A stretch of 64,000 bases of DNA from positions 1 to 64,000 of the forward strand of contig DAIDJG010000013.1 in NCBI GenBank assembly GCA_027451445.1, read 5' to 3'. The notes under the pieces were generated by a model, which was not told the origin of the DNA, searched no databases, and saw only the letters and a list, made by a program, of their open reading frames with translations. This document shows, in pieces, positions 4,941 through 22,603 of the stretch (positions are counted from its first letter, which is position 1; the number at the start of each line of letters is the position of its first letter). The stretch is from Singulisphaera sp. Its GTDB lineage: Bacteria; Planctomycetota; Planctomycetia; Isosphaerales; Isosphaeraceae. The translations under genes were made by a program, and so were the position numbers.

Positions 4941-6480
4941 CCCAATTCCGCTTCAATTCCGCTTCGAGCGCTCGATATGAGTTCTCATCGCAAAGCGGGT
5001 TCATCGAACGGGTGAAGCCCCACGCTACGCAGTTTGCGGCATGCACTCGGCGTCCGGCGACGAACTGCGAAATCCTTGAGGCCGCCAGATTTTTTTCCGA
5101 ATATTCGGCACCCGCGGCCGTATACTAAGTGGTCTTTAGTTCAGATGCCACGTTTCGCACCGGCCGGCCTCATCCCAGGGGGCCAAGGTCGGTCGAAAAA
5201 CGGTATCGGAGGGTCGGCTCATCATGTCGCCAAAACATTGCAGAACAGACCGTTCTTCCACTCGCCTCCATCGCACGCCGCGTTCGTCTGGCAGGTCACC
5301 GTCGGCGGAGGAAACGAAGACGCGTATTGGTACGATCGCACCGAGGATTTGCTGCCATATTAATTCCGATATGCTCGCGATCGGCGTCATGAGGATGAGA
5401 CGAGACGAGATCGGAGGATCCTGTTGGGACAAGAGTCATACACCATATTTCGGATTTCTCGTAAATTTCGGAAGCCGTTTTCGAAGTAAGATGCGGATGT
5501 TTGCAGAAAATATACAAAATAGGAGGTGTTTCTTGTCTCGGACCGCTGGCTGTTCCGTGCCGACCCTACCGCTTCGAGGATCACGAATTAGATGGCGTGG
5601 AGGCGCGGTATCTTCACTTTCGCTGATATCGCTTATCGGAAATTCGGAAATTCGGAACCCGTTGGTACGTAAGGGGTCTTCATTTCCGATCAACGGTCTT
5701 ATCGGAAACGCCCGCGACCTCTCCAACCTATTTTTCTTGACTCGTCGGAACAAAGGGATTTCGATCGCGCGCCGGTCGCATGGCTCGGAGAGGGTGACTG
5801 CTCAACGTCGTTGCGCCTCCCTGCCCTGGCGGACTGGTCGGATCCAAATCGACTTCGGATGCTCGATGCGCGACCGCGACCGACCTCCTTCCGTAAACGC
5901 GTCCGATTCCGTCGCCACGCACCGCCAGCGCTCCCGCATCGCCGTCGCGAAAAGCCGCGACCCCGCGAACGCAATTGATATGAAGGACTCACGATAACCC
6001 GCCGAACATCCGGCTGTCCGGCAGCAGTCATCGTATCGGTGTAGGCCGTAAAACCCGACTCCGGTAACTTTGACGATTGAGCGAAGCGTAGGCCCCATCG
6101 TGTGTTAAACTAGAGCGATCGCATGGGTCGGGTGGAGTTGGCGCCTTGGCGGCTGCATCTGATTCGGTGAGAGAAACCGTAAGGTCCGTGGAACTCTTGA
6201 TTGCCGCAGAGCGTCCAATTCGTAGGCCGTTTCATCGTGCGGTCCGACCGCAGCTCCTCCCGCGTCGAACCGGTCCTGGGTTGACTGCAAGGTGTTGCGA
6301 CGCAGGAGGTTGGCGGCTGCGTTGACGCTGGAGAGTCTGCTGTGCTAGCGTGATTCTGCTCCCGGCTCGCTTCGTGTGCGCCGGTCTTCTTGACCTGTCT
6401 CGTGCTAATCTTCGATCGAATTCGCGATAAACCCGTGTCCCGCGCGCGGCCCCGTTCGGGTGCCAGAGGAGAGTGATTGT
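4941..6480. other. Gene-free stretch, partly AT-rich, upstream of the pilus-type operon
   Basis: No convincing gene. ORFs here have unstructured Arg/Ser-rich translations. A lower-GC island at about 5430-5720 contains repeated TTCGGAA strings (for example near 5640) resembling sequence at 32830-32890. The last 160 bases hold the likely promoter and leader of the operon starting at 6481. Confidence 0.5.
6322..6351 (+). promoter_or_regulatory. Candidate sigma-70-type promoter of the pilus-type operon
   Basis: TTGACG at 6322-6327 and TAGCGT at 6346-6351 are separated by 18 bases, about 130 bases ahead of the start codon at 6481. The -10 box is a poor match, so this is a weak call. Confidence 0.3.
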
Positions 6481-8940
6481 ATGGCGAAAATCCAGGCCGT
6501 CTGGGCGCTCGACATCGGCCAAGCGGCACTCAAGGCGTTGAAGCTCGTCCCTGGCGAGACGCCCGACCAGGTGACGGCGGAGGCCTTCGACTATGTGGAA
6601 TACCCCAAGATTCTCAGCCAGCCGGACGCCGACCCCGATCAGTTGGTGCGCGAGGCGCTCGAGACGTTCCTGGAACGGAACGACCTGAAAGGGTGCAAAG
6701 TCGCAATCGGGGTGCCGGGACAGGCCGGGCTCGTCAAATTCATCAAACTCCCCCCCGTCGAGAAGAAGCGCATTCCGGACATCGTGAAGTTCGAGGCGAG
6801 GCAGCAGATTCCCTTCGCGCTCGAAGAGGTGGTCTGGGCCTACCAGCAGATCGGTGATGAAGACGAAGGGGCCAGCGACGACGACTTCACCATGGCGGAG
6901 GTCGGGCTGTTCGCGATGAAACGCGACCAGATCAACCGCGCGATCCTGCCGTTTCGGGTTGCGGGCATCGAGGTCGACGTGGTGCAGATGGGGCCGATTG
7001 CGCTCTACAACTTCATCACGTTCGACCAGATCAAGGGGAGTGAGTCGAAGGACTCCGTCGTCCTGCTTGATATCGGGGCGGACAACACGGACCTGATCAT
7101 CACCGACGGTACCCGTATCTGGCAGCGCAACGTGCCCATCGGCGGCAACCACTTTACGCGGGCATTGACCAAGGAGCTGAAGCTCACGTTCGCCAAGGCC
7201 GAGCACCTCAAGCGGAACGCGACCAAGGCGCCCGATCCGCGCTCGATCTTCACGGCGATGCGCGGGGTGTTCAACGACTTCGCGAGCGAGATCAATCGTT
7301 CGATCGGGTTCTACTCCAGTGTCAACCGCTCGGCGAAGATCTCGAAGATCGTTGGCCTGGGCAATGGTTTCAAGCTCCCCGGCTTGCAGAAGTTCCTCCA
7401 GCAGAACCTCAGCCACGAGGTCGAGAAGCTGGAGACATTTGCCAAGATGGTTGGCGAGGAGGTCAAGACGGCTCCTCAGTTCCAGGAGAACCTCGCGTCG
7501 TTCGGAGTTGCGTACGGCCTGGGGGTTCAGGGACTGGCACGCAGCGGGCTGCGAACGAACCTCTTGCCGCCGGAGATCGAACAGATCCGGCTCATTCGGG
7601 CCAAGAAACCCTGGGCGTTGGTGGCCTCCGCGCTGCTGATGGTCGGGTTTGGCGGGCTGTTCATGGGCGATTACAGCGTCCTGGCGACGGTCATCAAACC
7701 GGAATTCGACAACGCGGTGAAGTCGGCCAAGTCGACCTCGCAACAGGGCGCCCAGTTCAAGACGGACTTCGGGACGGCCAAGGGGGCGTGGCAGGCCAAG
7801 TTCGACGAGGGGAAGGCGCTTGTTCCCGATCCGACCGACCGAGGGCGCTGGCCGGCGTTCTTGAAGACGATCAATGAACATCTTCCGAACCCCATCGCCG
7901 AGCTGAAACTCGATCCGAACCGGCCGAGCGACGTGCCGATCATCGACAAGCTGCGGGTCCACGTGGACCTGATCAAGCCCGTCTGGCGGAAGGACGTGGC
8001 GGCCGAGTGGTTCAGCATGGCTCCGCCGGTTGGACCACGCGACGACCTCAAGCGACTCGTACACCCGCTCGATCGGGACAAGCCCCCCGCGGGTTCGGGC
8101 TGGATCGTGCAGATCGTGGGGCACCACTACAACCCGATTCCTTCGAAGGCCGAAAGAAGCCTTCCTGAAGACAGTCCGAAGCGCACGGAGTTCGGACCGT
8201 ACTTCTATCTCGTCAAGAAGGTTCTTCCCCGGCTCAATGCGCCCGACTTGCGGCTCTACGGCGTCAACCACGTGACCCTCGCGTGGCTCACGATCGAACG
8301 GGAGTGGACCAGCGAAAAGGGGGCACAGAACAACAACCTGTCGTCCAACGCGGTTCCGCTCCTTGACCGGGCAACTGCGGCTGTGACGGAGGGAGCGGCC
8401 GGTAGCGGTAGCGGCGGGTCAATGGATGCGATGCAACGCGCGATGATGGGCGGTGGATCGGGCAGCATGCAAGGCGGAATGATGAAAGGAATGGGCGGGT
8501 CCGGCGGCATGATGCCGGGCATGATGCCCGGGATGATGCCGGGAATGATGCCTGGGATGATGCCCGGCGGGATGGCTGACGCGAAGGAGAAGGAGAAGCT
8601 GGTGACGCTTACGCGCACCGACTTCCTGATCCAGTTCGTCTGGCAGCCGCCGACGCCCGAGGAGACTCCCAAGACAGAGGAGGAACTCAAGACCAAACTC
8701 GCCGCCATCACCAAGGACCTCATCGATGCGCAGACGGGACAATCGGAGGTGCGGATCGATGAGTCGACGATCGAGAAAGCCTCCCTCGAACAGTCGAAAG
8801 CCGTGGAGAACGCCTTGACCAAATCGGCTGCGACACCGGGGATGCCGGGAGCTGTGCCGGGTGCTCCGGCTGCGGTGCCGGGTGCTCCGGCTGCGGTGCC
8901 GGGTGGTGTGCCGGCGGTTCCGCCCGCGACACCGAAGTGA
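6481..8940 (+). CDS. pilM: PilM-type actin-like ATPase fused to a PilN-like membrane segment
   Basis: 819 residues from ATG 6481, chosen over GTG 6460 because AGGAG (6467-6471) sits 9 bases upstream. Residues about 1-355 are PilM: an actin/FtsA-like fold with A-L-D-I-G near residue 9, the VGLFAMKRD region and a second nucleotide motif VVLLDIGADNTDLII. In type IV pili and type II secretion, PilM is the cytoplasmic ring that binds the N-terminal INLLP-like motif of PilN. Here a T-N-L-L-P-P-E motif (residues 359-365) follows the PilM domain directly, then one membrane helix (about 378-400) and a periplasmic part, which is how PilN begins. I therefore read it as a PilM-PilN fusion. Residues about 647-698 are Met/Gly-rich (repeated MMPG), and the C-terminus repeats PGAPAAV. 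It heads an operon with the next two genes. Confidence 0.88.
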   Translation: MAKIQAVWALDIGQAALKALKLVPGETPDQVTAEAFDYVEYPKILSQPDADPDQLVREALETFLERNDLKGCKVAIGVPGQAGLVKFIKLPPVEKKRIPDIVKFEARQQIPFALEEVVWAYQQIGDEDEGASDDDFTMAEVGLFAMKRDQINRAILPFRVAGIEVDVVQMGPIALYNFITFDQIKGSESKDSVVLLDIGADNTDLIITDGTRIWQRNVPIGGNHFTRALTKELKLTFAKAEHLKRNATKAPDPRSIFTAMRGVFNDFASEINRSIGFYSSVNRSAKISKIVGLGNGFKLPGLQKFLQQNLSHEVEKLETFAKMVGEEVKTAPQFQENLASFGVAYGLGVQGLARSGLRTNLLPPEIEQIRLIRAKKPWALVASALLMVGFGGLFMGDYSVLATVIKPEFDNAVKSAKSTSQQGAQFKTDFGTAKGAWQAKFDEGKALVPDPTDRGRWPAFLKTINEHLPNPIAELKLDPNRPSDVPIIDKLRVHVDLIKPVWRKDVAAEWFSMAPPVGPRDDLKRLVHPLDRDKPPAGSGWIVQIVGHHYNPIPSKAERSLPEDSPKRTEFGPYFYLVKKVLPRLNAPDLRLYGVNHVTLAWLTIEREWTSEKGAQNNNLSSNAVPLLDRATAAVTEGAAGSGSGGSMDAMQRAMMGGGSGSMQGGMMKGMGGSGGMMPGMMPGMMPGMMPGMMPGGMADAKEKEKLVTLTRTDFLIQFVWQPPTPEETPKTEEELKTKLAAITKDLIDAQTGQSEVRIDESTIEKASLEQSKAVENALTKSAATPGMPGAVPGAPAAVPGAPAAVPGGVPAVPPATPK
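8515..8572 (+). repeat. Short tandem repeat encoding MMPG units
   Basis: About five copies of a 12-base unit (atgatgccgggc and variants) encode repeated M-M-P-G inside the PilM-PilN fusion. A second small repeat at about 8845-8900 (21-base unit) encodes PGAPAAV copies. Confidence 0.85.
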
Positions 8941-8948
8941 TTGTGAGT

Positions 8949-8985
8949 CCGTCCTGGGCCGGGTCCGAAAACCGGTCCAGGACGG
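8949..8985 (+). promoter_or_regulatory. Strong stem-loop between the first two pilus-operon genes
   Basis: CCGTCCTGGGCCGG (8949-8962) pairs with CCGGTCCAGGACGG (8972-8985) over 14 positions with one G-T wobble and a 9-base loop, starting 8 bases after the stop codon of the first gene. No T-run follows, so an attenuator or mRNA-stabilising hairpin is as likely as a terminator. Confidence 0.55.
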
Positions 8986-9089
8986 CCGCTCTACCGCGAA
9001 ATACGCCGGCTGGAATGATCTCGAGTGTCTTCGAAGTCGTTCCCGGGACCTCCTCCAAACGCTGCTGAATCCGAGAGGCCAGTGCGACC

Positions 9090-10904
9090 ATGGACCAAGT
9101 GAAGGAAATTCTCAAGCAGGCGATCAAATATCGGTTCTGGATCGCCTTCGGGATCTCATTGCTCTTCCCGATCATTGCCTACGCTGTGGGCTCCGGCCCG
9201 ATCAAGGACGAGGCGAAGAAGAAGACCGACGAAATCAAAGGCGCCAAGAAGGACGTGGAGCAGTACGCCAACGGGGTTGCCATCAATCGTCAGTACAAGC
9301 CTCTCGTCGACGCGAAGACAACGGAGTTGAATAAGGACGTGCTCAGCTCATGGAAGAAGCTTTACGCCGTCCAGGCGCCGCTGTTGACCTGGCCGGAGAT
9401 CGTACAGGACCGGTTCAACACCTGGGGCCGTACTTGGCCCGAGAACCAGGACGCGAGCGTCGTTCAGCGTGCGATCATCGAGTATGTCGAGGCCTATCCC
9501 AAGTTCGTGACCGAGGTCTACAAGTCGTTCCGCCCGTTCGATTACGTCGACGGTGGCGGAGTGGTCTCCGCGCCGCCGGAGGAGGTATTGCTTAGGCCGG
9601 CGAAGTTCAACCTCGAAAAGACTCCGGACCTCGGCAAGGTCTGGGCCGCCCAGGAGCGGCTCTGGATCCAGCGGACGTTGCTGGAAGTGGTCGGGGAAGT
9701 GAACCACAATGCCAAGGACTGGAGCGGCGCGATCATCAAGGAGATCAAGGCGCTCGAAGTCGGTAGCTCCGCCGCGCAAGATCAAGTTTCCCTGGCCTCC
9801 GGCGAGACGCTGGAGGAAGCCCCGGCCATCACCGATCCCAAGGCCCCGCCTCCCCCCGCGGCTGAATCGTCCAGCCCCGCTGAAAGCGGGCCCGGCAATG
9901 CGATGATGGGTATGTATGGCAGCGGTGGCGGCAGCGGCGGTGGGAAAGATCCGGACGGCGAGGCGATCTTCTACCTCAAACCCCAGAATCCGAACGCCCA
10001 ATACAAGATCATGCCGGTCTCGCTGACCGTCTCGGTCGAGCAGGACCACATCCAGGACTTCCTCGTCGCCCTGGAGAACTCGCCGATGGCGATCCAGGTC
10101 AAAGAGTTCGAGATGTCCAAGCCCTCCCAGCGCATCGTGAAACCGGAGAAGGGCGAGGGGCCCAACTTCGGCTACGGCGGGTACGGTTCTGGGTCCATGA
10201 TGGGCATGATGGGCATGATGCCGGGAATGATGGGCCGGAGGGGAGGCGTGACCGCGTTCGGCGGTAATTCGGCAATGATGAATATGTATAATGCGGGCAG
10301 TATGCGTCCGCCCGGTGGGGCGATGGGCTACGGTGCTTCGTCGAGCACAACCACGAAATCGGGGGTCGACAAGCGCGGTACGGACAAGCGCAAGGTGAGG
10401 AAGGAGGGTGCGTCGGAAAGCGAGAAGGTCAAGAACACGCACTCGACTCAGGATCCGTACTTCAACGTCGTTGAGGTGACCGTCTACGGTCAGGCCCGCT
10501 TCTACAACCCACCGCCGCCCGAGCCCCCGGCTGAGCCGAGCGTTGCGGCCGAGGGGGCTGCCCCGGCGGATGCCGCCAAGACCGATGCCGCGAAGACCGA
10601 GTCTATGCCCGAAAAGGGCGACGCCGAGCCGGCCAAGACCGATGAGGCCAAGAAGGACGAGAAGCCGAAGGACGAGGCCAAGACGGAGGGCGATGCGCCC
10701 AAGAAGGCCGAGGAAGACGCTGCCAAGAAAGCCGAAATGCCTGACGCTGCGAAGAAGGACGAGGCTCCCAAGGCTGACGCTCCCGCGGCGAAGGAAGAGC
10801 CCGCTGCTCCCAAGGCCGGCGAGAGTGCGCCGACCAAGGAGAAAGACGACTCAGCGGCGAAAGATGCGGAAAAGAAGCCCGAGACCGCGACTCCCAAGAA
10901 ATGA
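9090..10904 (+). CDS. Inner-membrane pilus-operon protein with Met/Gly tracts and long Lys/Ala/Glu tail
   Basis: 604 residues with one N-terminal membrane helix (about 17-35, FWIAFGISLLFPIIAYAVG) after a short cytoplasmic lead, then a predicted periplasmic body. This is the layout of PilN/PilO-type alignment proteins, but I see no diagnostic motif. Met/Gly-rich stretches lie at about 269-285 and 366-415. From about residue 473 to the end the protein is almost only Lys, Ala, Glu, Asp and Pro (AAKTDAAKTE-like), resembling a histone-H1-like disordered tail. It follows the PilM-PilN fusion by 149 bases and precedes another single-pass protein, so it is probably a partner in the same complex. The exact function is not recognised. 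Confidence 0.8.
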   Translation: MDQVKEILKQAIKYRFWIAFGISLLFPIIAYAVGSGPIKDEAKKKTDEIKGAKKDVEQYANGVAINRQYKPLVDAKTTELNKDVLSSWKKLYAVQAPLLTWPEIVQDRFNTWGRTWPENQDASVVQRAIIEYVEAYPKFVTEVYKSFRPFDYVDGGGVVSAPPEEVLLRPAKFNLEKTPDLGKVWAAQERLWIQRTLLEVVGEVNHNAKDWSGAIIKEIKALEVGSSAAQDQVSLASGETLEEAPAITDPKAPPPPAAESSSPAESGPGNAMMGMYGSGGGSGGGKDPDGEAIFYLKPQNPNAQYKIMPVSLTVSVEQDHIQDFLVALENSPMAIQVKEFEMSKPSQRIVKPEKGEGPNFGYGGYGSGSMMGMMGMMPGMMGRRGGVTAFGGNSAMMNMYNAGSMRPPGGAMGYGASSSTTTKSGVDKRGTDKRKVRKEGASESEKVKNTHSTQDPYFNVVEVTVYGQARFYNPPPPEPPAEPSVAAEGAAPADAAKTDAAKTESMPEKGDAEPAKTDEAKKDEKPKDEAKTEGDAPKKAEEDAAKKAEMPDAAKKDEAPKADAPAAKEEPAAPKAGESAPTKEKDDSAAKDAEKKPETATPKK

Positions 10905-11006
10905 TGACGGCCGTCACATTTTTGAATCGCAACGCCACATTCAACGGTCGGGCCGCGAGGGTCGCCGGCTGTTTGCTCATAACCTGCGTCGAGAGGAGTG
11001 TCCACC

Positions 11007-12959
11007 ATGGCCAATGCGTCTGCTGAAAAATTGAAGGGCCTGGCGCTGCGTCACGGCGAGAAAGTGGGGGTTGGCCTGACGGCTGGTCTCTGCGCGTTCT
11101 TGCTCTTTACCGGGGCCACCGAAGAAAAGATCGACCTGACTCCCGAACAGGTCAAGAAAGCCGCCGAGGCGGCCAATCAGAATATCACGCGCAATCAGAA
11201 TGAGGACGACATCCTCAAGCGGCTCTCGGAGGAGTGGCTGAAGAAGCCCGAGTTCACGGCCCTGGTGGACAAGCAAGCGACGACCAAGCTCGTAGCGAGC
11301 GACTTCAAGGCGCGTCAGCCGTGGGTCTCACCCGAGCCGGGAGCTGGTTTGCTGCGCGACGATCCCGTCCTGATCGCCGTCAGCGAGCTCTATGCGTACC
11401 CAGGCCGAGGCGGCGTCCTGATGTACGAGCTCGATAAGACGGGCGAGCGCATCAAGGACGACGGCAAGGGTGCGGACGAGGACACGAAGGTTCGGCGCGG
11501 CAAGAAAAAAAAGAAGAGGCGGGGTGGCCAGATGGGGGGGAGCTCCAGCATGATGCCGGGAATGGCGTCGGCCGACAAACCCAAGAGCAAGGAGGAGGAG
11601 GCGAAGGAGAAGAAGGAACTCGAAGAGAAGGCCAAACGGCTGAGGGCTCAGTTCAGCGGTGGCGACAAGGACAAACCGAAGACTGAAGAAGCACCCCAGG
11701 AAGAGGAAGGCGGCCCGTACAAGGAAACCACGGTTGGCCAGCGCTGGGTGGTGATCACGGGGACGCTCGATCACCAGAAACTCTGCGACAACTATCTCCT
11801 GGCCTTGAAACGGCCTGAGGTCGCCCATCCCCATTACAAGCGCCTGGATGTCGAGCGGCAGATCAAGCAGGCAGACGGTACGTGGTCCGACTGGGAGCAG
11901 CCGAACTGGGAGCTGCACGACAAGATCCTGGATAATCTGCCCGAGGAAGAAGAGGAGATGACTCCGGACGACGTGCGGATCGCTGAACTTGTCGACCCCT
12001 TGCCATTCCTCCGCGCGGGCTACTGGGAACGCGCGCACATCGCCAGTCTCGTTCCGCAAGAGAAGAAAGAGCTTCCCAAAGCGGCCGCCACGGGTGGTGA
12101 GGCCGGGATGATGGGCGGCAGTGGCTCCAGCATGAGCATGGCGATGAGCCGGATGAACGAGGAGCAGATGCCCCGAATGCCCATGACGGGCTCAAGTATG
12201 GGCATGATGGGGATGATGGGTGGTATGGGCGCGACCGGGGAAGACACCAACTTCGCGAAGACCGAAGCGGACACCATCATGATCCGCTCGCTGGACTTCA
12301 CCGCCGAGCCCGACACGACGTACCGGTATCGGGTCCGGATTGTCGTCTTCAACCCGAACTTCGAACGTGAAGACGTGAACCCGGGGGTCGAAACCAAAAA
12401 GAAGACCCTGTATGGGCCGTGGAGCGAGCCCTCGGAAGAAGTGACGATGCCGGCCGACGTTACGGCTTATGCCTACAAGCCCGCGCCCAATGCGAAGAAG
12501 TCCGACGTCGTGCCCGTGCAGTTCCAGGTTACGAAATGGAACCCCGACGACGGTGTGACGGTCGTCAAAACGTTTGACGCGTCTCCCGGCGATATTATCG
12601 GTGAACCTCGTACGACGGACGTTCCGGTCTCCGACGGGTCGGGCAAGAAGTCGACGAAGATCGACTTCAACTCGCGTCAAATCCTGCTCGATAGTGCCGG
12701 CGGTACCCAGGCCATGCCCAAGGTGGGTGCCTCGGTCAACTTCTTCGAGGTGCCGGCCGTTTCGTTGTTGCTGCGGCCCGATGGCTCTGTGGTCTTGCGC
12801 AACCAGGCCAGCGACTCGATGGACGAAGTTCGGCTCGATATCGAGTCGAACTACAAGAAGGAGATTGAGGAGTCGACCAAGAAACGCGAGAAATCGCAGG
12901 GGTCCGGCTCTTCGGCGATGATGATGATGGGAAGCCCACCGGGTCGGCCGGGGCGCTGA
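11007..12959 (+). CDS. Third pilus-operon membrane protein with Met/Gly tracts
   Basis: 650 residues from ATG 11007; AGGAG (10994-10998) lies 8 bases upstream, favouring this start over GTG 10998. One membrane helix is predicted at about 20-37, then a charged Lys/Glu segment and a periplasmic part. Near residues 430-480 the strand-rich D-T-T-Y-R-Y-R-V-R-I-V-V-F and Y-G-P-W-S-E-P-S resemble a fibronectin-III-like fold. Met/Gly/Ser-rich tracts lie at about 174-187, 365-410 and the extreme C-terminus (SSAMMMMG). Operon position suggests a component of the same envelope complex (PilO/PilP position), but the family is not recognised. A terminator follows. Confidence 0.8.
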   Translation: MANASAEKLKGLALRHGEKVGVGLTAGLCAFLLFTGATEEKIDLTPEQVKKAAEAANQNITRNQNEDDILKRLSEEWLKKPEFTALVDKQATTKLVASDFKARQPWVSPEPGAGLLRDDPVLIAVSELYAYPGRGGVLMYELDKTGERIKDDGKGADEDTKVRRGKKKKKRRGGQMGGSSSMMPGMASADKPKSKEEEAKEKKELEEKAKRLRAQFSGGDKDKPKTEEAPQEEEGGPYKETTVGQRWVVITGTLDHQKLCDNYLLALKRPEVAHPHYKRLDVERQIKQADGTWSDWEQPNWELHDKILDNLPEEEEEMTPDDVRIAELVDPLPFLRAGYWERAHIASLVPQEKKELPKAAATGGEAGMMGGSGSSMSMAMSRMNEEQMPRMPMTGSSMGMMGMMGGMGATGEDTNFAKTEADTIMIRSLDFTAEPDTTYRYRVRIVVFNPNFEREDVNPGVETKKKTLYGPWSEPSEEVTMPADVTAYAYKPAPNAKKSDVVPVQFQVTKWNPDDGVTVVKTFDASPGDIIGEPRTTDVPVSDGSGKKSTKIDFNSRQILLDSAGGTQAMPKVGASVNFFEVPAVSLLLRPDGSVVLRNQASDSMDEVRLDIESNYKKEIEESTKKREKSQGSGSSAMMMMGSPPGRPGR

Positions 12960-13785: not shown

Positions 13786-14313
13786 ATGACTGACCGCTTG
13801 CCCCAATGCGGCTTTCGAGTGCTCGACCTGTCGGCCCTGGTCGTTGGCTATAGCCTGGCGGCGCTCCTCGTCCGGGCGTTCTGGCCGTCCCCGAGCTTCC
13901 TTACGACTGTCGTGCTGGTCGTGATCAGCATCGTTTTTCTCTGGCTGGGACTCGCGATGAGCGGCCCGTTGGTTCTCGCCCGAAGGCGCCGAGCGACCGA
14001 TCCAACGGCGCGTACTCAGAGCCACTACACCTGGGCCGAGGTCGCCTGGCTGATCATCGGCTTCTACTGGATCGCGATGATGGTTGTGCTGGTGCCGGTT
14101 CGAATGCACAACGCGAAACTCCTCGACGCCGGATTCATCGGCGTCTTTCCGTTTCTGGCGGCGCTGGCGCTGCGGTTCCTGAGTCCGAAGGGCAGAGCCG
14201 TGACCGAGCTCGATTCGCATCGACGTTGGACCCATCGCGCGGCGGTTGGCCTCCTCATCACGTGGCCGTTTGTGTGGGTGGCGTTGATCATGCTGGGGAT
14301 GACGCTGCCATGA
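13786..14313 (+). CDS. Predicted four-helix membrane protein overlapping cobM
   Basis: 175 residues, about four or five membrane segments (VVGYSLAALLVRAFW, LTTVVLVVISIVFLWLGL, VAWLIIGFYWIAMMVVLV, FPFLAALALRF, LLITWPFVWVALIMLGM). It shares with the preceding gene the G-P-L-V-L..R-R-R-R turn, the W-L-I-I-G segment and the C-terminal H-R-R-W-T-H region. Its stop overlaps the cobM start by four bases (ATGA), so it is translationally coupled to cobalamin synthesis. Being next to cobM-cbiA it could be a transport or membrane-anchoring helper, but nothing in the sequence shows that. Confidence 0.78.
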   Translation: MTDRLPQCGFRVLDLSALVVGYSLAALLVRAFWPSPSFLTTVVLVVISIVFLWLGLAMSGPLVLARRRRATDPTARTQSHYTWAEVAWLIIGFYWIAMMVVLVPVRMHNAKLLDAGFIGVFPFLAALALRFLSPKGRAVTELDSHRRWTHRAAVGLLITWPFVWVALIMLGMTLP

Positions 14314-15104
14314 TGCCTGCGCGCGATTTCCACTCAGGTACCGTTTACTTCATCGGTGCGGGGCCGGGCGATCCGGACCTGATCACCGTCCGAGGACGTA
14401 CGCTCATCGAGCGCTGTCCGGTCTGTCTGTTCGCGGGCTCACTCGTGCCAAGGGCGGTGGTCGCGTATGCGCCTCCCGGTGCCGAGGTGCGCAATTCCGC
14501 GAGCATGACACTTGATGAGATCATCATGTTGATGGCCGCGGCGACTGCGGATGGGCGCGACGTCGCGAGGGTCCACTCGGGCGATCCCAGCCTCTACGGT
14601 GCCATTGCCGAGCAAATGCGACGGCTCGATTCGCTGGGCATTCGCTATGAGGTTGTTCCGGGCGTGAGCTCGTTCCAGGCCGCGGCGGCGGCCCTGCGGC
14701 TCGAGTTCACGCCGGCGGGTAAGACGCAGACGGTCATCCTCACACGCGCCGCGGGTCACACAGGGACGCCGGAATCGGAAGACCTCAAGGCGCTGGCGGC
14801 GCATCGAGCCGCCCTGATTCTCTTCCTGTCCGCGGCGCAGATGCCGGACGTCGTCTCGGCGCTCGTACCGCACTATGGTCTCGATGCGCCCGTTGTGGTC
14901 GCTTACCGGGTCTCGTGGCCTGACGAGCAGATCCTCAGATGCACCCTGGGAAGTGTCGAGTCCTGCATGGCCGAAGCCGGGATCACGCGGACGGCCCTGA
15001 TCATTGTCGGCCCGATGCTCGAGGACTCGAACGGGTCTGAAAGTCACCTCTACAATTCTGGTTACGCGCACCTGTTTCGCAAGGCCCGTGATGCCGACCG
15101 TTAA
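14310..15104 (+). CDS. cobM: Precorrin-4 C11-methyltransferase (CobM/CbiF)
   Basis: Methylates C-11 of precorrin-4 (or cobalt-precorrin-4) with S-adenosylmethionine in corrin ring synthesis. 264 residues, normal for the tetrapyrrole methylase family. The N-terminal motif V-Y-F-I-G-A-G-P-G-D-P-D-L-I-T and the V-H-S-G-D-P-S-L-Y-G-A motif are the classic SAM-binding signatures, and V-P-G-V-S-S-F follows. Start is the ATG at 14310, overlapping the previous stop; a second ATG at 14313 is equally possible. The 3' end overlaps cbiA by 14 bases. Other cobalamin genes are not in the window. Confidence 0.93.
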   Translation: MMPARDFHSGTVYFIGAGPGDPDLITVRGRTLIERCPVCLFAGSLVPRAVVAYAPPGAEVRNSASMTLDEIIMLMAAATADGRDVARVHSGDPSLYGAIAEQMRRLDSLGIRYEVVPGVSSFQAAAAALRLEFTPAGKTQTVILTRAAGHTGTPESEDLKALAAHRAALILFLSAAQMPDVVSALVPHYGLDAPVVVAYRVSWPDEQILRCTLGSVESCMAEAGITRTALIIVGPMLEDSNGSESHLYNSGYAHLFRKARDADR

Positions 15105-16458
15105 AGAGACCCCCGCGCTCGTGATTGCCGGCACGCATTCGGGATCGGGGAAGACGACCGTCGTCCTCGCCCTGCTCTCCGCGCTGCATCGGCGCGGCCA
15201 TCGGGTTCAGGGCTTCAAGGTTGGCCCCGACTTCATCGACGCCGGCCATCATGGCCGAATCACGGGCCGGCCGAGCCGCAATCTCGATACCTGGCTCCTT
15301 GATCCCCCAGGGCTCGCGAAGACGTATCGTCGAGGCGTCCAAGGCGCGGACGTCGCGATCATCGAAGGCGTGATGGGCCTTTTCGACGGTCGAGGGGCTC
15401 TGGACGAGGCTGGCTCGACGGCCGATCTGGCCCGCTTGTGGGACCTGCCGGTCGCCCTGGTCGTCGACGCGCGGGGGCTTGCGCGTTCGATCGCGCCGCT
15501 CGTCCACGGCTTCCGGACTTTTGACGAGCGGGTCAACGTGATTGGGACGGTGGCCAATCGTGTCGGCAGCGCGCGGCACTATAACGGGTATCTCGCCCCT
15601 GCGCTGACAGCTTTGCCCGGGGGATGCCAACCGCTGGGTTTTTTGCCGAGAGACGAGCGTCTGTCGATTCCGTCGCGCCACCTCGGTTTGGTCACGACGG
15701 AGGAATTCCAACCGGACGGAGATTTCTGGTCGCGTTTGGCGGATGCTGCTGAGTCATTTCTCGATGTTGATGCGTTCCTCGCGCTGGCCCGGCCTCCCCG
15801 ACTTGCGCCTCCGGAGGACGAGTCCACCCGGGCGTCCTTGGCGCGATCGGTCCGCGTGGCGGTGGCCCGCGATCGCGCCTTCTGTTTTTACTACGAAGAC
15901 AACCTCGATCTCTTACGCGAGGCGGGGGCAGAGCTCGTGCCGTTTTCGCCGCTCGACGACCCCGGTCTTCCGGACTCGGTGGACCTCGTCTACGTTGGGG
16001 GCGGCTATCCCGAGGTCTTTGCGTCGCAGATTGCCGCGAATCACTCGTTCCGTGCATCGATCCAGGCGTACCACAAGCAAGGGGGCGCGATTCTGGCGGA
16101 GTGTGGCGGACTGATGGCGTGCGCCCAGACGTTGCGGGACGGCTCGGGGCACGATCATGCTGTCTGGGGGCTCATTCCTGTCCGGGTGGTCATGAAGAGT
16201 CGATTCCAGGCACTCGGCTATGTGACGATCGAGACCGAGAACGAAACCCTTTTGGGGCCGCAGGGCACATCCGTGCGCGGCCACGAATTTCACTACTCCG
16301 CGCTCGAACCGCTCCAGCCTCTGTGCTACGCGACCCGATTGGTGCGGTCGGATGGGGCTCCCCGGCCCGACGGGATTCAGATTGGTGGTCTTCTCGCCGG
16401 TTACGCGCATCTTCATTTCGGCTCCAATCCCGCCGTTGTGCCGGCGCTGCTGCAGTAG
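15091..16458 (+). CDS. cbiA: Cobyrinic acid a,c-diamide synthase (CbiA/CobB)
   Basis: ATP-dependent, glutamine-using amidation of the a and c side chains of (hydrogeno)cobyrinic acid. 455 residues from ATG 15091, inside the end of cobM. The N-terminal P-loop G-T-H-S-G-S-G-K-T-T, the switch region around V-G-P-D-F-I-D and E-G-V-M-G-L-F-D-G mark the dethiobiotin-synthetase-like ATPase half. The C-terminal half is a class I glutamine amidotransferase with Y-V-G-G-G-Y-P-E, the nucleophile Cys in A-E-C-G-G-L-M-A, and a late H-L-H-F pair. Length and motif order are normal. Translationally coupled to cobM. Confidence 0.93.
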   Translation: MPTVKETPALVIAGTHSGSGKTTVVLALLSALHRRGHRVQGFKVGPDFIDAGHHGRITGRPSRNLDTWLLDPPGLAKTYRRGVQGADVAIIEGVMGLFDGRGALDEAGSTADLARLWDLPVALVVDARGLARSIAPLVHGFRTFDERVNVIGTVANRVGSARHYNGYLAPALTALPGGCQPLGFLPRDERLSIPSRHLGLVTTEEFQPDGDFWSRLADAAESFLDVDAFLALARPPRLAPPEDESTRASLARSVRVAVARDRAFCFYYEDNLDLLREAGAELVPFSPLDDPGLPDSVDLVYVGGGYPEVFASQIAANHSFRASIQAYHKQGGAILAECGGLMACAQTLRDGSGHDHAVWGLIPVRVVMKSRFQALGYVTIETENETLLGPQGTSVRGHEFHYSALEPLQPLCYATRLVRSDGAPRPDGIQIGGLLAGYAHLHFGSNPAVVPALLQ

Positions 16459-16476
16459 TCGGGTCGCGAATCGACG

Positions 16477-16506
16477 TTGGACCTCGCGTTTCGGATTGGC
16501 TAGATT
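16477..16506 (+). promoter_or_regulatory. Candidate sigma-70-type promoter ahead of the acyl-CoA/ACP ligase
   Basis: TTGGAC (16477-16482) and TAGATT (16501-16506) with an 18-base spacer lie about 175 bases upstream of the start at 16682. Confidence 0.4.
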
Positions 16507-16681
16507 GGAGCGAGATTGCAGGCCGAATCAGATCGGCAGACACAGACTGGACTTGAACGAATTCCGTCGCAGCGGTACTTCACCGTCAAGATGCGGCCTA
16601 CTCCGGCCTAGGTGTCAGTGCGTAAAACAAGCGACGATGGACATCGCGCGTCCCCGTACGTCAGGACGAGGAGCCACAGTA

Positions 16682-18343
16682 ATGACCGTGCAAGCGAGCC
16701 CCCAGACCGCCGAATCCACGGTCGTCGAGCCGGGGGGTAAATTGACTCCTCTGCCGGCCGGATGGAGCTCGCTTCCTCGCGCCTTCGCGGTCGCCGCGCG
16801 CGCGAGTTCCAAGAAAACGGCCATGGCCGACAGCAGTGGAGCGCGTCTGACCTACAGCGACACGTTGCTGCGCTCGATCGTTCTCGGACGCGTGCTGGCT
16901 CGTGCACTCAGTCCCCATCCTTACGTGGGGCTGCTCCTCCCTCCCGCTGTCCCATCGTCCGTTGCGAATCTGGCGCTGGCGCTTTGGGGTAAGATCCCTG
17001 TCAATTTGAATTACACGGCGAGCCAGCACCTGATCGATTCCTCGATCGACCAATGTGGCATCACGCACGTCGTCACGTCCCGCAAGGCGCTCGAGAAGCT
17101 CAAGCTGGAGCCCAAAGGAAAGCTCATTTACCTGGAAGACGTGCCTGCTCAGGTCACATTGCTCGACAAGGCGTTCGCGGCCTTCGTGGCGAAAGTGCTG
17201 CCCATCAGTGCGTTTGGCACGTTCTTGCCGGGGCTGCGTCGCGAGAGTCTGGACGAGACTGCCACCGTCATTTTCACGTCGGGTTCCACGGGAGACCCCA
17301 AGGGGGTCGTTCTGTCGCATCGCAATGTCTTGAGTAATGTCCATCAGATGAACCAGCATCTCGACCTCTTGCCTGACGAAAGCGTGCTGGGGATCCTGCC
17401 ATTCTTCCACTCGTTCGGCTTCACCGTGACGATCTGGACGGTGCTCACGCTCGGAAAGCGGGTGGTCTACCACAACAATCCGCTCGATGCGCGCATTGTC
17501 GGCAACCTGTGTGCGAAGCATGACGTAACGATGCTGGTCGGCACGCCCACATTCATGAGGCTCTATCTCCAGAAGGCCGGGAAGGAGAGCTTCGGTAAAC
17601 TCGTCCACTTGCTGTTGGGGGCGGAGAAGCTCAAGCCCGAGCTGGCCGCCGCCATTCGGGAGGAACTCGGGATCGATCCGATGGAAGGCTACGGCTGCAC
17701 CGAGCTCTCGCCGGTTGTCGCGGTCAACCAGCGGGGAAACAAGCGCACACCCGACGGGCGGACCGTTCCGGGCAATCGGCTCGGGACAACCGGTACGCCC
17801 TTGCCGGGCACTTACATCAAATCGGTTGATCCCGAGTCGGGTGCCGAACTCAGCCCATTGACGGAAGGAATGATTCACGTGAAAGGGCCCCAGGTCATGG
17901 TGGGGTACCTCAATCGCGCGGAGGCTACCGCGAAGGTCCTCAAGGACGGGTGGTACTGCACCGGGGACCTGGGGTTCGTCGATGCCGACGGATTCCTGAC
18001 AATCACGGGCCGGCTCAGCCGGTTCTCGAAGATCGGTGGCGAGATGGTTCCCCACGAGGGCCTCGAGGGAGCCATCCTTCGTACGACCGGAGTGACTGAG
18101 CAATGCGTGGCGGTGACGTCGCTGCCAGACCCGAAGCGAGGTGAACGGCTTGTTGTGGTCTACACGGATATGGGCATGTCGCCAGAGCAACTGTGTCAGA
18201 AGCTTAACCATTCCGAAATCCCGAAATTGTGGATCCCCTCGCCGGACAGCTTCCTCGCGGTTGAGGCCATTCCAATCCTCGGCACCGGTAAGCTCGACCT
18301 TCGCGGATTGCGTGAACTGGCCGCCGCACGATTCGGTCAGTAA
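16682..18343 (+). CDS. AMP-forming acyl-CoA / acyl-ACP ligase
   Basis: Adenylates a carboxylic acid (probably a fatty acid) with ATP and transfers it to a thiol. 553 residues from ATG 16682; GAGGAG (16668-16673) is 8 bases upstream, so longer upstream starts are rejected. The AMP-binding P-loop is I-F-T-S-G-S-T-G-D-P-K-G-V, then F-F-H-S-F-G-F-T, the Y-G-C-T-E-L-S motif, Y-C-T-G-D-L-G and a C-terminal G-T-G-K-L-D-L with the catalytic Lys. The sequence resembles the ligase half of Aas (2-acylglycerophosphoethanolamine acyltransferase/acyl-ACP synthetase) without the acyltransferase half. Substrate is inferred. It stands alone, followed by a palindromic element. Confidence 0.88.
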   Translation: MTVQASPQTAESTVVEPGGKLTPLPAGWSSLPRAFAVAARASSKKTAMADSSGARLTYSDTLLRSIVLGRVLARALSPHPYVGLLLPPAVPSSVANLALALWGKIPVNLNYTASQHLIDSSIDQCGITHVVTSRKALEKLKLEPKGKLIYLEDVPAQVTLLDKAFAAFVAKVLPISAFGTFLPGLRRESLDETATVIFTSGSTGDPKGVVLSHRNVLSNVHQMNQHLDLLPDESVLGILPFFHSFGFTVTIWTVLTLGKRVVYHNNPLDARIVGNLCAKHDVTMLVGTPTFMRLYLQKAGKESFGKLVHLLLGAEKLKPELAAAIREELGIDPMEGYGCTELSPVVAVNQRGNKRTPDGRTVPGNRLGTTGTPLPGTYIKSVDPESGAELSPLTEGMIHVKGPQVMVGYLNRAEATAKVLKDGWYCTGDLGFVDADGFLTITGRLSRFSKIGGEMVPHEGLEGAILRTTGVTEQCVAVTSLPDPKRGERLVVVYTDMGMSPEQLCQKLNHSEIPKLWIPSPDSFLAVEAIPILGTGKLDLRGLRELAAARFGQ

Positions 18344-18519
18344 GAGTCTGTCCCAATCGTGCGTGAAGCGTGGAAATGGGGACTGGCTCCGGACGTCTTC
18401 GGACGGTGCCTGTCCCCATTTTCACGCTTCACGCTCCGCCGGAAAACGGGGACTGGCACCTCGAAGACTCGGAGCCAGTCCCCGTTTTCCGGCTCCGCTC
18501 CACTTCCGGGACAGACTCT
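18343..18519. repeat. 177-bp nested palindromic element (MITE/REP-like)
   Basis: Outer arms AGAGTCTGTCCC (18343-18354) and GGGACAGACTCT (18508-18519) are perfect inverted repeats. Inside are two further hairpins: GCGTGAAGCGTG...ATGGGGACTGGC against GCCTGTCCCCAT...CACGCTTCACGC, and CCGGAAAACGGGGACTGGC against GCCAGTCCCCGTTTTCCGG. The left tip overlaps the last base of the ligase stop codon. It encodes no protein. It may also act as a terminator for the ligase gene. Confidence 0.85.
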
Positions 18520-18645
18520 AACACCCGAGAGTGAGGAATTGTGAACCGAATTGGCCAATAGCGTATTCATCGCCGGGCTGATTGATTAAGATTCATTGGG
18601 AGCGAGTGTCAACGACAACGATGCGCCTCACCCCTGGAGCCTGGG

Positions 18646-20004
18646 ATGGAGGTTGTCCTCAAGGTCAAGTCGGGTCCGCATCAGGGCGAGGTCCATTCTG
18701 CGCAAGGCGACGTTTCTCTGGTCGTCGGCCGCTCGTCTCAGGCGGGGCTCCCCTTACCCGAGGACCGCTTACTCTCTCGTGAGCATTTCCGGATCGACTT
18801 GAACCCATCGTGTTGCACCCTCGTCGACCTGGGAAGCACGAACGGGACGAAGGTGAACAACTTGAGGGTCGATACCACCCAACTCCGCCACGGCGATGTG
18901 ATCGCGGCGGGTGACAGCATGTTGGTGGTACAGGTGGAACAGCCGCAGAACCAGGAAGTCCCGCGCCTCCGTTGTCCGGGTTGCGGACATCCGATTCCTC
19001 GGCAGCCAATCCCCTCTCCATCTCGCGTTTGCATCGTCTGCCAGGCCAAGAGCCGGCGCTTTCCCAGGACCGATCGCGACTATTTGATCGAACGCATGAT
19101 CGGCGGCGGAGGCATGGGCGAGGTCTATCTTGCCAAGGATCTCGAGCACCAGCGCCAGGTGGCCATCAAGATGATTCCCGCCACTTCCGGAGCAAGCGAG
19201 CGCGCGCGCAGTTACTTCCGCCGCGAAATGAAGGTGCTGCGCGACTTGCTCATGCCGAACGGTGAGTGTCATCCCAACATCGTTCAGTTCTACGACGTGA
19301 TCGACGTCGACGGTCAGATGCAACTCATCATGGAGTACGTTGCCGGCAAGAGTGCCCTGCTCTGGCTCAGCGAGACTTCGGCGCGCGACTCCGGAGGCAG
19401 CAAGACCGCGATTGACGTCGAAAACGGATCGAACTCGGAAGCCTTGAAGGACGCGGCGCCGTTAGCCGTCGCGTCGGCCGTGCGCATCGGCTGGCAGCTT
19501 CTTTCGGCGCTCGAATACGCGCACGAGAAGGGATATGTGCATCGGGACGTCAAGCCGTCGAATGTCCTGATCATGGGGCCGAGGCATCGTCCGAAGGTCA
19601 AGCTTTCCGACTTCGGACTGGCGAAGAGCTTTCGAGAGAATGCCGAGTTCGAGATCCTGACGGCTCAGGGCGTGATCGGAGGATCAGTCGGCTTCCTGTC
19701 GCCGGACCACATCCGCGCCTTTCGAGAGCTCAAAGCTCCCGCCGACATCTATTGCGCGGGGGTAACCCTGTACTACCTGCTCACCCTGCGGTACCCCTAT
19801 CTGGGTTTCGATCCCCACCAGCCGGACGCGTACACTCTGATTCTGGAAAACCCACCCGTCCCGCTGCGCGTATTTCGCCCGGACGTTCCGGAGGGACTCG
19901 AACGCATCATCCGCAAGGCGCTGGAGAAGCACCCCCAGGCACGTTGGAAAACTGCGGGTGAAATGGCCGATGCCCTGCGTTCGCTGTCGCTCAGTCCGGC
20001 CTGA
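18646..20004 (+). CDS. Ser/Thr protein kinase with N-terminal FHA domain and zinc-knuckle-like linker
   Basis: 452 residues. Residues about 22-95 are an FHA phosphothreonine-binding domain (V-G-R-S, L-S-R-E-H-F, D-L-G-S-T-N-G-T). Residues 110-132 hold two CxxC pairs (C-P-G-C and C-I-V-C), a possible zinc site. The kinase domain covers about 146-445: glycine loop G-G-G-G-M-G-E-V, VAIK with Lys175, H-R-D-V-K-P-S-N catalytic loop, and D-F-G-L-A-K. There is no transmembrane helix, so it should be cytoplasmic. FHA upstream of a kinase suggests self- or partner-recognition after phosphorylation. It lies between the palindromic element and a lipoprotein isomerase, without obvious operon partner. Confidence 0.9.
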   Translation: MEVVLKVKSGPHQGEVHSAQGDVSLVVGRSSQAGLPLPEDRLLSREHFRIDLNPSCCTLVDLGSTNGTKVNNLRVDTTQLRHGDVIAAGDSMLVVQVEQPQNQEVPRLRCPGCGHPIPRQPIPSPSRVCIVCQAKSRRFPRTDRDYLIERMIGGGGMGEVYLAKDLEHQRQVAIKMIPATSGASERARSYFRREMKVLRDLLMPNGECHPNIVQFYDVIDVDGQMQLIMEYVAGKSALLWLSETSARDSGGSKTAIDVENGSNSEALKDAAPLAVASAVRIGWQLLSALEYAHEKGYVHRDVKPSNVLIMGPRHRPKVKLSDFGLAKSFRENAEFEILTAQGVIGGSVGFLSPDHIRAFRELKAPADIYCAGVTLYYLLTLRYPYLGFDPHQPDAYTLILENPPVPLRVFRPDVPEGLERIIRKALEKHPQARWKTAGEMADALRSLSLSPA

Positions 20005-20284
20005 ATCGGGCTTCTGCGTTTGTATTGAGGTCAAAAAGGGACCTTAATAGGCCATCCATGCTCGCAAACGCCGGTCGTAAACCGCCAAACCGCTCTTGCA
20101 GCATGTGAAGGTCGAAGGTACTCTGCCGACGCCATTCTCGATGTGCCAGCGGCCGAATCGCGCCCCTCGGTATTTCACCTCTCGATCTGAGTCACACGAA
20201 GCGACTCCTTGCGTCTCCGATGCGCGTTCGCGCGCTGTCTGTTCGGTGACGCTTCCCCAGTCTCCAAGGACGGAGAAACCGCCA

Positions 20285-22603
20285 ATGAACCGTCATGTCG
20301 TCGCCGGGCTCCTGATCTTGGCCCTCGCGGGCTGCGCGCGCGATCGCGTCGCTCAGCGGGGTGGCCAGGGTGTGGGGGGACCCGTCGGACTCCCGCCGGA
20401 AGTGCCGCCGATATCCGAAACCATCAATCAGGGAGCTCCCTCGCTTGGTGCCAACGCGCTCCTCGCCGACAAGGCCCATGGGACCATCTCAGCGCCTCTG
20501 AATACGGGTGGAGCAATTGTACCCGCCCCTCCCGATGCGATGGGTGATCCATCGACGATGTCTACCGCAAGTGTCGCGGCCTCGCCCGGTGAGAGCGGAG
20601 GCTCTGCCAGCGCGGCTACGGCATCCCCATCGACCACGGGTAATATCGCCGCTCTTCCGGGCGCGAATCCTGCGGCCGGCCCTCATGTCGCGAGCGGGCG
20701 ACCGGTCGCGTCGACGCAACCCCACGAGCACGGCCCTCCGGCGGCGCTTTCGGCCCCGGCCGAAGAGAGACCCCAACCGAGCACGCCCGCGCCCGCGATG
20801 AGTTCGCTTGAAGGAAGTTCCCCCGCCTCCGCCATCGGTCAACCTACAGACGCCGGAGCACGGACCCTGGTGCCGCCCGCTCAACCCGGACCGGGAACGA
20901 GCGACCCACTGCTCGGCGCCAACCCACAGGTTATGCCGGAGATCGATCCGGCCGGGTTACCACCGAGGGCCGGGGACGCAGGCGTGCAGCCGGCCGCAGG
21001 AACGGTTCCGGTCGTCGGACCCGCCACGCCTCCACTCGGCAAGGAGCCGAAGCCCGGTGCGGATTCCGATGTGATGCCGAACATGGAGTTGGCCCCCGCG
21101 CCGACCTCGGGAGGATCCGGCGGATCACCCGTACGCGAGGATTTGCCCACCTCACTCGTGCCCGCCGAATCCGGTGCGTCAGCCCCCGAGGGTGCCGCAC
21201 TGCCCAAAGCGAACCAGGATTCGCTCCTGGGTGCCAGCCCGTCGCTCATGCCCGACATGCAACTGCCACCGCCGAGGCAACCCAGGAACGAGAAGACAAT
21301 TCACGGAATCGAAGCTGCCAAGGGTCAGAGCGGCGCTGGGTCCAACCCGGCCGGGGGCACAAGTCCGCCGACCGCCGACAGCGACGTGATGCCTCCGATC
21401 GTGCTCCCGCCGGACACTGCCAAAGCCCCCGGGGCGGTTCCCGCGCCCGTTGATCCCCTGCCCCCGGTCGTGGCACCGCCGCCAGCCGAGGTGGCCCCGC
21501 CCTCCGCCGCACCGTCGACTCCCGTCGACCCCGCGCCGCCTCCCCAGGCGGCACGGGCCAAGCGCGACTCCGGCCTCGCCCGCACTGCGGGCGAGGCGGC
21601 GACGGTTCGCTCGCAAGTGAAGACTCAAGCGATCAAGCCCGCCGGCGAAATCGCCGCACACGTGGGAGACGACATCATCACGTTCACCGAGCTCACCAAC
21701 GCGCTGAAGGATCAACTCGAGGGCCAGTTCAAGGGAATGCCCACGAACGATAAGAAGAGCGTGAACATGCTCGCCGCGGTCACCCTTCAGGATCTCATTG
21801 ACCGGAACGTCATCTATCAGGAAGTCAAAAGGAAACTCAAGGACCCCAAGAAACTCAAGGCGGTGAATGACATCGCCGACCGGATCTGGACCGATAGCGA
21901 ACTCCCCGCCCAGATTCGTAAGCACAAGGCGGAAGACGAAAAAACACTCCGGGAAATCCTGGCCAAAAAGGGGCGGTCGCTCGACGACATCCGCGAAAAC
22001 CACCGGATCAATTTCCTGACCCACGGGTACCTGGAACAGGAAGTGGCGTCAAAGTTCAAAGCCGGTCTCTCCGAAATGCGGGACTATTATAACGAGCATT
22101 TGAACGATTTCGATCGACCCGCACAGCGCACGTGGCGAGAGGTCCTGATCGAGGTCGACAAATCGCCAAACCGTGTGGCAGCTCGCCAGCGTGCCGAATC
22201 TGCACTGGCCCGTCTTCGTCGCGGTGATGACTTCGCCAAGGTGGCTCAGAGCGACAGCGACGGACCAAACAAGTCACGCGGCGGTGTCTGGCAAACCTCG
22301 CCGGGTGGATACTCGGTTGCCTCGGTCAACGCCGCGCTCGAAACGACCCCGGTCGGCGAGATCAGCTCAATCATCGAAGGTCCCACGAGCTTTCACATCA
22401 TTCGCGTCGACGAACGTCGAGAAGCCGGCCCTGCCCGCTTCGATGAGGTTCAGGATGAAATCCGTGAGATCGTTCAGAGAAAAAAGTCCCGCGCCGGACT
22501 CAACGAGTACATTGTGAATCTTCGCAAGAAAGTAATCATTCGTACGATGTTCGATGGTACCGACAGCGATCCGGCCCTCATCCGTGCTTCTGCCAAACCA
22601 TGA
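20285..22603 (+). CDS. Lipoprotein SurA/PpiC-type peptidyl-prolyl isomerase with long Pro/Ala-rich linker
   Basis: 772 residues from ATG 20285, with a short leader ending in lipobox L-A-G-C (Cys17), so it is probably an envelope lipoprotein. Residues about 30-440 are a Pro/Ala/Ser/Gly-rich linker holding repeated motifs: S/D-L-L-G-A-x-P-x-x-M-P and D-S-D-V-M-P, each followed by an acidic-to-proline stretch, alternating. From about 450 a SurA-like N-domain (E-I-A-A-H-V-G-D-D-I-I-T) leads to a parvulin/PpiC rotamase domain (R-E-V-L-I-E-V, R-L-R-R-G-D-D-F-A-K-V-A, G-G-V-W-Q-T, I-S-S-I-I, F-H-I-I-R-V). Role inferred: outer-membrane/periplasmic protein folding. The start was chosen because it begins the only sensible signal peptide. 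Confidence 0.85.
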   Translation: MNRHVVAGLLILALAGCARDRVAQRGGQGVGGPVGLPPEVPPISETINQGAPSLGANALLADKAHGTISAPLNTGGAIVPAPPDAMGDPSTMSTASVAASPGESGGSASAATASPSTTGNIAALPGANPAAGPHVASGRPVASTQPHEHGPPAALSAPAEERPQPSTPAPAMSSLEGSSPASAIGQPTDAGARTLVPPAQPGPGTSDPLLGANPQVMPEIDPAGLPPRAGDAGVQPAAGTVPVVGPATPPLGKEPKPGADSDVMPNMELAPAPTSGGSGGSPVREDLPTSLVPAESGASAPEGAALPKANQDSLLGASPSLMPDMQLPPPRQPRNEKTIHGIEAAKGQSGAGSNPAGGTSPPTADSDVMPPIVLPPDTAKAPGAVPAPVDPLPPVVAPPPAEVAPPSAAPSTPVDPAPPPQAARAKRDSGLARTAGEAATVRSQVKTQAIKPAGEIAAHVGDDIITFTELTNALKDQLEGQFKGMPTNDKKSVNMLAAVTLQDLIDRNVIYQEVKRKLKDPKKLKAVNDIADRIWTDSELPAQIRKHKAEDEKTLREILAKKGRSLDDIRENHRINFLTHGYLEQEVASKFKAGLSEMRDYYNEHLNDFDRPAQRTWREVLIEVDKSPNRVAARQRAESALARLRRGDDFAKVAQSDSDGPNKSRGGVWQTSPGGYSVASVNAALETTPVGEISSIIEGPTSFHIIRVDERREAGPARFDEVQDEIREIVQRKKSRAGLNEYIVNLRKKVIIRTMFDGTDSDPALIRASAKP

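Follow-up and report, generated by a model that had tools for sequence, protein, structure and literature searches.

The window, the whole stretch of 64,000 nucleotides that was analysed (contig C13; the draft genome has 622 contigs and 10.9 Mb), contains three consecutive genes on the forward strand. Gene 1 (6481-8940) encodes 819 residues counted from the ATG at 6481, gene 2 (9090-10904) encodes 604 residues and gene 3 (11007-12959, with an alternative start at 10998) about 650 residues. All coordinates given below are on the + strand unless marked otherwise.

Domain structure of the three proteins

The first part of gene 1, residues 1-352 (6481-7536), is a PilM actin-like domain. Residues 10-349 matched the Pfam family PilM_2 (PF11104) with an E-value of 2e-33 and 116.2 bits against a cut-off of 27, and the protein scored above the curated PilM cut-off of TIGR01175 (158.4 versus 133 bits). 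In the AlphaFold2 model of gene 1, which was based on 69 sequences and had a mean pLDDT of 84.6, this domain was mostly above a pLDDT of 90 and aligned to 2ych with Z 33.3. By analogy the domain would be cytoplasmic. In the same frame follows the PilN-type docking peptide TNLLPPE, residues 359-365 (7555-7575), which is kept across the class. Behind the peptide a membrane helix at about residues 377-398 (7609-7674), hydrophobic in sequence, is predicted inside a longer helix of residues 364-401, and a coiled-coil helix, residues 407-447 (7699-7821), was found both in the profile comparison and in the predicted structure. The chain then continues into a predicted periplasmic alpha/beta domain (7960-8329) with strands 494-503 and 540-549, helix 573-585 and strand 595-609. 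Its closing strand, residues 710-721 (8608-8643, the RTDFLIQFVW region), is conserved in the alignment and is set apart in the model by a disordered Met/Gly/Pro loop, residues 633-700 (8377-8580), lying between the last two strands.

When residues 355-735 of 36 class members were aligned and compared by hhalign with 12 separate PilN proteins of other planctomycetes, a match over 111 columns was obtained with a probability of 96.9 and an E-value of 1.8e-10, spanning the peptide, the membrane helix and the coiled coil. The Pfam PilN model PF05137 did not match gene 1 at E 1, nor did it in a search of the own genome at E 0.001, and a profile search of the PDB with the PilN-type periplasmic domain gave no matches. 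Fold searches with the gene 1 model returned matches within residues 2-364, the PilM part; the alpha/beta pattern beyond is a feature of the model. The VIA-align lists for the models of genes 1 and 3 were each filled by one domain, and the absence of PilN, PilP and GspC from them is uninformative. The sequence-only reading had proposed that gene 1 joins a PilM domain to a PilN-type peptide and helix; the PilM_2 match, the hhalign comparison and the predicted structure confirmed that it is a PilM-PilN fusion, here called PilMN, and the region after residue 359 does resemble PilN at the profile level.

A separate PilN alongside the fusion was considered and rejected. PF05137 was absent from all seven genomes of the window's own family that were searched, and where separate PilN genes were found in the class, in 6 of 18 genomes, the distance to gene 1 exceeded 1 Mb in every case.

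The top Foldseek match of the gene 1 model (E 5e-24) was 5eou, a crystallised PilM carrying PilN residues 1-12. In this construct the parts follow one another along a single chain as they do in gene 1; it differs in that it stops after the peptide and that its one chain is named for both proteins. VIA-align superposed residues 5-364 of the model on residues 10-366 of the 5eou chain (chain B) with Z 33, and the alignments to 2ych and 3jc8 ended earlier, at residue 354 or 353. The two ten-residue blocks of the model that hold the peptide had mean pLDDT values of 95 and 94. Because the alignment to the PilM:PilN1-12 construct runs through the peptide, the contact between PilM and PilN is probably made inside one chain, as had been suggested from the sequence. 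The model is no proof of docking in cis, as a swap between neighbouring chains would give the same sequence picture.

Gene 2 starts with one hydrophobic helix and occupies the position of PilO. In Pfam it had a weak match to T2SSM_b, under the cut-off with an E-value of 0.15. Compared by hhalign with separate PilO proteins, it gave an E-value of 5.5e-5 and a probability of 66.3 over the N-terminus only; further comparisons with PilO reached a probability of 15.0, and the C-terminal part 0.4. None of 31 gene 2 members matched a PilO or GspM model at E 0.1. Profile searches of Pfam and the PDB with gene 2 led to no identification, as the match to Amuc_1100 (6laf), with an E-value of 3.2, is no better than chance, and the gene 2 relative of a more distant locus (L097, see below) had no match in the PDB either. 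The conserved segment reads as strand-helix-strand, followed by a Met/Gly-rich low-complexity loop (10152-10349, delimited by alignment and composition) and a last strand-like segment. As we read these sequences, this could be the same plan as that of the PilN part of gene 1.

Gene 3, in the position of PilP, likewise begins with one hydrophobic helix, which was seen in the sequence and in the predicted structure. Besides the membrane helix, its model (mean pLDDT 81.1) showed a fibronectin-III-like sandwich, into which an alpha/beta domain is inserted, and a second beta domain. The most conserved part of the protein, residues 423-492 (12273-12482), is predicted to form the sandwich, which strand 126-140 completes, and residues 361-410 (12087-12236) form a disordered Met/Gly stretch in the model. 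The best VIA-align match was fibronectin-III-like (Z 7.9, rmsd 2.6, 103 residues aligned). Pfam gave no match at E 1 and Foldseek none below E 0.001, and profile searches of Pfam and the PDB found nothing. That two single-pass proteins stand in the PilN/PilO/PilP slot held for position and topology, and on these grounds gene 2 may be PilO and gene 3 PilP.

Recurrence of the locus, secretin and motor genes

PilM_2 was found in 291 of the 294 genomes of the phylum. Residues 1-570 of gene 1 matched 143 of 148 class genomes, and 134 of the 135 good ones. Among the matches listed, nearly all full-length ones had a frame length of about 640-1,100 residues; those that did not were in frames that were broken or ran into a contig end (e.g. 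G404, G360 and G394). The question from the sequence-only reading whether the three-gene order recurs in other planctomycetes could be answered positively: genes 1, 2 and 3 followed each other in 66 of 70 class loci, the window included, with median gaps of 84 and 87 bases, genes 2 and 3 being assigned by position (the longest frame within 700 bases) rather than by similarity. One locus with a broken gene 1 frame (L090) was excluded from the 70. In the four loci without this order, gene 3 was missing (L135), the gene 1 frame had 454 residues (L140), none was found (L141) or the contig ended (L146).

A profile of the gene 3 C-terminus matched 17 of 119 genomes of the phylum, comprising all six class members and 11 of the 113 others. 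Nine of these eleven were examined, and eight had a fused PilMN followed by a second frame and gene 3; L253 did not. The second frame matched the gene 2 profile in seven of the eight. In an unrooted tree of 66 PilM domains all 25 fused ones were placed on one side of a branch with 100/100 support, and a single change between fused and separate was found in 100% of 200 bootstrap trees, in a chosen sample in which the separate PilM rows were mostly the best Pfam matches and the fused rows from outside the class were, all but one, picked for carrying gene 3. The fused proteins of this sample form one lineage. Read most simply, such a tree would point to a single fusion that predates the class.

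Two other arrangements were seen in other classes. Six PilM rows (L027 and L092, which are the same gene, L093, L094, L095 and L099) carry at the C-terminus a tail of some 200-300 residues, in which the NLLP peptide is absent; three of these loci adjoin a shorter PilM, and the rows group apart from the fused branch. They are a second kind of long PilM. At L097 (3675-10392, - strand) a fused PilMN with 34% identity is followed by a gene 2 relative and then by a TPR-secretin, gene 3 being absent between them. This secretin matched the Amuc_1098 model (1.3e-35), and the arrangement is Akkermansia-like. As the secretin stands in the slot of gene 3, the row was excluded from later gene 3 alignments.

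The secretin of the genome itself is located on another contig (C545). It is a giant protein of 1,462 residues, which matched Secretin (6.6e-26), a PilQ model (3.3e-28), the Amuc_1098 family (4.5e-20) and also GspD models. A secretin in a very long frame, of 1,123-2,206 residues, was found in 17 of 18 class genomes searched; in the eighteenth (G304) the Secretin domain was in a frame of 371 residues with the rest of the protein directly upstream, possibly a frame break in this copy. In five genomes (G304, G372, G376, G332 and G363) the secretin was directly after gene 3, on the same strand and within about 12 kb of gene 1. It also followed gene 3 in Singulisphaera sp. GP187, S. acidiphila, Paludisphaera soli, Aquisphaera insulae and Tautonia sociabilis, and it adjoined gene 3 in 7 of the 12 loci examined out of 80 retrieved. 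Counting the 13 loci with at least 5.5 kb of downstream DNA, 8 had the secretin next to gene 3, and in the window and four others it was apart; the remaining 53 of 66 loci were below the 5.5 kb limit and outside this count. The association of the locus with pilQ or secretin genes, raised as a check in the sequence-only reading, is therefore a frequent one, and in these relatives the order reads PilMN-O-P-Q with a secretin of approx. 1,400 residues, the labels PilO and PilP being given by position.

In the window no pilus genes were detected among ten neighbouring frames scanned. The downstream part (14259-22600) encodes a tetrapyrrole methylase, a CobB-like amidotransferase, an AMP-binding enzyme, an FHA and Ser/Thr kinase protein and a PPIC-type isomerase. 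A motor operon was found on contig C558, consisting of PilB, PilT, a second PilB with a c-di-GMP-binding motif and PilC, after which the contig ends. A PilT (L150, 4187-5296) scored above its cut-off, with 457.7 versus 319.1 bits, and the scores of the PilB and PilC/GspF models fell slightly short of the curated cut-offs. An operon of this kind continues into prepilin-like frames in G304, G298, G354 and G332, and in the last two of these it extends as far as a protein that measures 1,611 or at least 1,303 residues. The prepilins matched GspG and GspH models. By its position and likeness the operon of G354 may correspond to the locus Plim_0401-0410 of P. limnophila, in which, according to PMC10632474, four genes of type II secretion-like character precede six that are specific to planctomycetes. 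As platform and motor operon occur in the same genomes, the motor operon may serve the PilMN platform.

One prepilin of the motor operon (L155, 13926-15557) matched, in addition to GspH, the model of Verru_Chthon cassette protein D (1.4e-9), possibly another link to Verrucomicrobiota.

Relation to known platforms and a candidate role

We consider it probable that the products of genes 1-3 form a type IV filament machine's inner-membrane platform, with PilM and PilN as one protein. The earlier suggestion of a divergent envelope or pilus/secretion platform of planctomycetes agrees with the gene order, the secretin and the motor genes. In such a machine the PilM domain in the cytoplasm would grip the PilN peptide of its own chain, and the membrane helix and coiled coil would pass the movement of the motor to the periplasmic alpha/beta domain. 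This domain would pair with the PilO-like gene 2 protein, and gene 3, in its PilP-like position, would connect the platform to the very large secretin. The second operon would supply two PilB extension motors, a PilT retraction motor, PilC and prepilins. The PilO and PilP tasks of genes 2 and 3, the cooperation of the two operons and the filament function are what we infer. With the PilMNOPQ system of type IVa pili the locus shares the gene order, PilM, the PilN motif, the secretin, PilB, PilT and PilC, but M and N are fused, genes 2 and 3 are much longer and unmatched by PilO and PilP models, and the secretin has about 1,400 residues.

The architecture of PilM and PilN in one chain is already known. 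In GspL/PulL an actin-like domain, a helix and a periplasmic ferredoxin-like domain, equivalent to PilM plus PilN, are found in one chain (PMC10191384, PMC4471445 and PMC3815138), and gene 1 shares the actin-like domain, the helix and a predicted periplasmic domain with it. The three genes and the secretin could accordingly be viewed as a type II secretion platform GspL-GspM-GspC-GspD, with gene 1 as GspL, gene 2 as GspM and gene 3 as GspC. The description of PulL as a PilM-PilN fusion (PMC10191384), the weak T2SSM_b match of gene 2, the GspD matches of the secretin and the GspG and GspH matches of the prepilins are in line with this assignment. We regard it as unlikely, since gene 1 is closer to PilM, being above the PilM cut-off and matching no GspL model at E 1 or better, since it retains the NLLP peptide of a separate PilN, and since it is accompanied by a motor operon with PilT, which type II secretion systems are said to have lost (PMC10191384).

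The type IV platform proposed above has its closest curated model in the Amuc_1101 family (NCBIfam NF045709). This model outscored the PilM model for all eight fused proteins scanned and for none of five separate PilM proteins, which lacked a few N-terminal residues. The fused proteins aligned up to positions 458-481 of the 608-position model, past the PilM domain, and gene 1 up to position 463 (211.7 bits, E 2.3e-62); all of them, gene 1 included, scored far under the cut-off of 650 bits. The secretins, both the genome's own and that of L097, matched the Amuc_1098 family as given above, and genes 2 and 3 had no match to Amuc models at E 1 or better. On the Akkermansia side the comparison was made with the curated models and the published description of MUL2 (Amuc_1098-1102). 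Amuc_1101 itself is probably a PilM-PilN fusion. Its locus in Akkermansiaceae is MUL2, a type IV-like pilus system for mucin/glycan attachment and uptake (PMC13174399). The open-access literature searched yielded no account of a PilM-PilN fusion in planctomycetes. What is new is a variant of the type IV filament platform that is class-wide and of a single lineage, and its informative part is the fusion and not the Met tracts.

Planctomycete crateriform structures connect the outer with the inner membrane, and the 12 nm fibres on them bind dextran; it was speculated by Boedeker in 2017 that craters and fibres are a route of polysaccharide uptake (both PMC5394234). In a 2024 paper the mechanism of polysaccharide import in planctomycetes was still called unknown (PMC11131199). 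Joining the fit to the Amuc_1101 model, the uptake role of MUL2 and the dextran-binding crater fibres, we tentatively propose that PilMN-O-P, the giant secretin and PilB/PilT/PilC might build the press-stud-like crateriform structures, that the fibres might bind polysaccharide and retract it into the periplasm, and that MUL2 in Akkermansia might be the same machine. This reading, in which the class-wide presence of gene 1 is set beside the published crater morphology (PMC5394234), seems to us possible rather than probable. If it were true, the use of a type IV-like pilus to take up macromolecules would be an ancient feature shared by Planctomycetota and Verrucomicrobiota as a group. The class-wide platform and giant secretin provide named genes to target in Planctopirus limnophila, where deletion tools are available and a triple deletion of pilQ-like genes has been published (PMC11958385). 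The fusion is a PilM-PilN that occurs naturally as one chain and could be used in structural studies of motor coupling.

Methionine tracts and state of the genes

As had been noted from the sequence, all three proteins hold low-complexity tracts of Met, Gly and Pro. The densest stretch of 40 residues contained 16, 12 and 15 Met in genes 1, 2 and 3, a density reached in none of 2,000 shuffles each, and the 7, 6 and 7 MM pairs were reached in 0, 0 and 1 of 2,000 shuffles. The MMPG units of gene 1 are encoded by a 12-base tandem array of 5.3 copies (8505-8568, 82% matches). The Pro and Gly codons vary between the units, and the array is therefore not a product of fresh slippage; these synonymous differences speak for some age. 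The tracts occupy columns of low occupancy in the alignments and disordered loops in the models of genes 1 and 3. In gene 1 the pLDDT was below 50 over residues 633-652 and 654-700, and the alignment occupancy was 0.37-0.54 per 20-residue block over residues 641-700.

The sequence-only reading had put the Met tracts forward as a feature of the three-gene operon and had mentioned a copper or redox role as speculation. One could accordingly suppose a Met-rich envelope system with copper or redox chemistry on a pilus scaffold, and the clustering of Met beyond chance in all three proteins would fit such a system. The density of M[MGP] pairs in genes 1, 2 and 3, counted per 100 residues, had medians of 1.96, 3.75 and 3.24 in the window's own family (n=8 loci) and 0.40, 0.73 and 0.84 in other families (n=62, 59 and 58), where 14, 8 and 12 members had fewer than 0.2 pairs and some loci had none. 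As the tracts are disordered loops, dense in the own family and low or nil elsewhere, the idea that they mark the system found no support, copper or redox chemistry is unlikely as a conserved function, and we give a Met-centred system very little credence. We rejected the tracts as a conserved functional feature; on the plainest reading they are flexible spacers of drifting make-up.

That the displaced secretin marks a relic, a machine decaying in this genome, is what its place beside gene 3 in close relatives and on another contig of a 622-contig draft here might suggest, and is hardly credible given that the frames of genes 1-3, of the secretin and of the motor genes are all open and that gene 1 is matched in nearly every good class genome (134/135).

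Two minor observations concern the DNA of gene 1. A perfect 21-base repeat of 2.5 copies (8854-8905), coding for VPGAPAA units near the end of the gene, is likely recent, unlike the diverged MMPG array. Antisense to gene 1 runs an open frame of 679 codons (6232-8271, - strand), which probably arises merely from the codon usage of GC-rich DNA.
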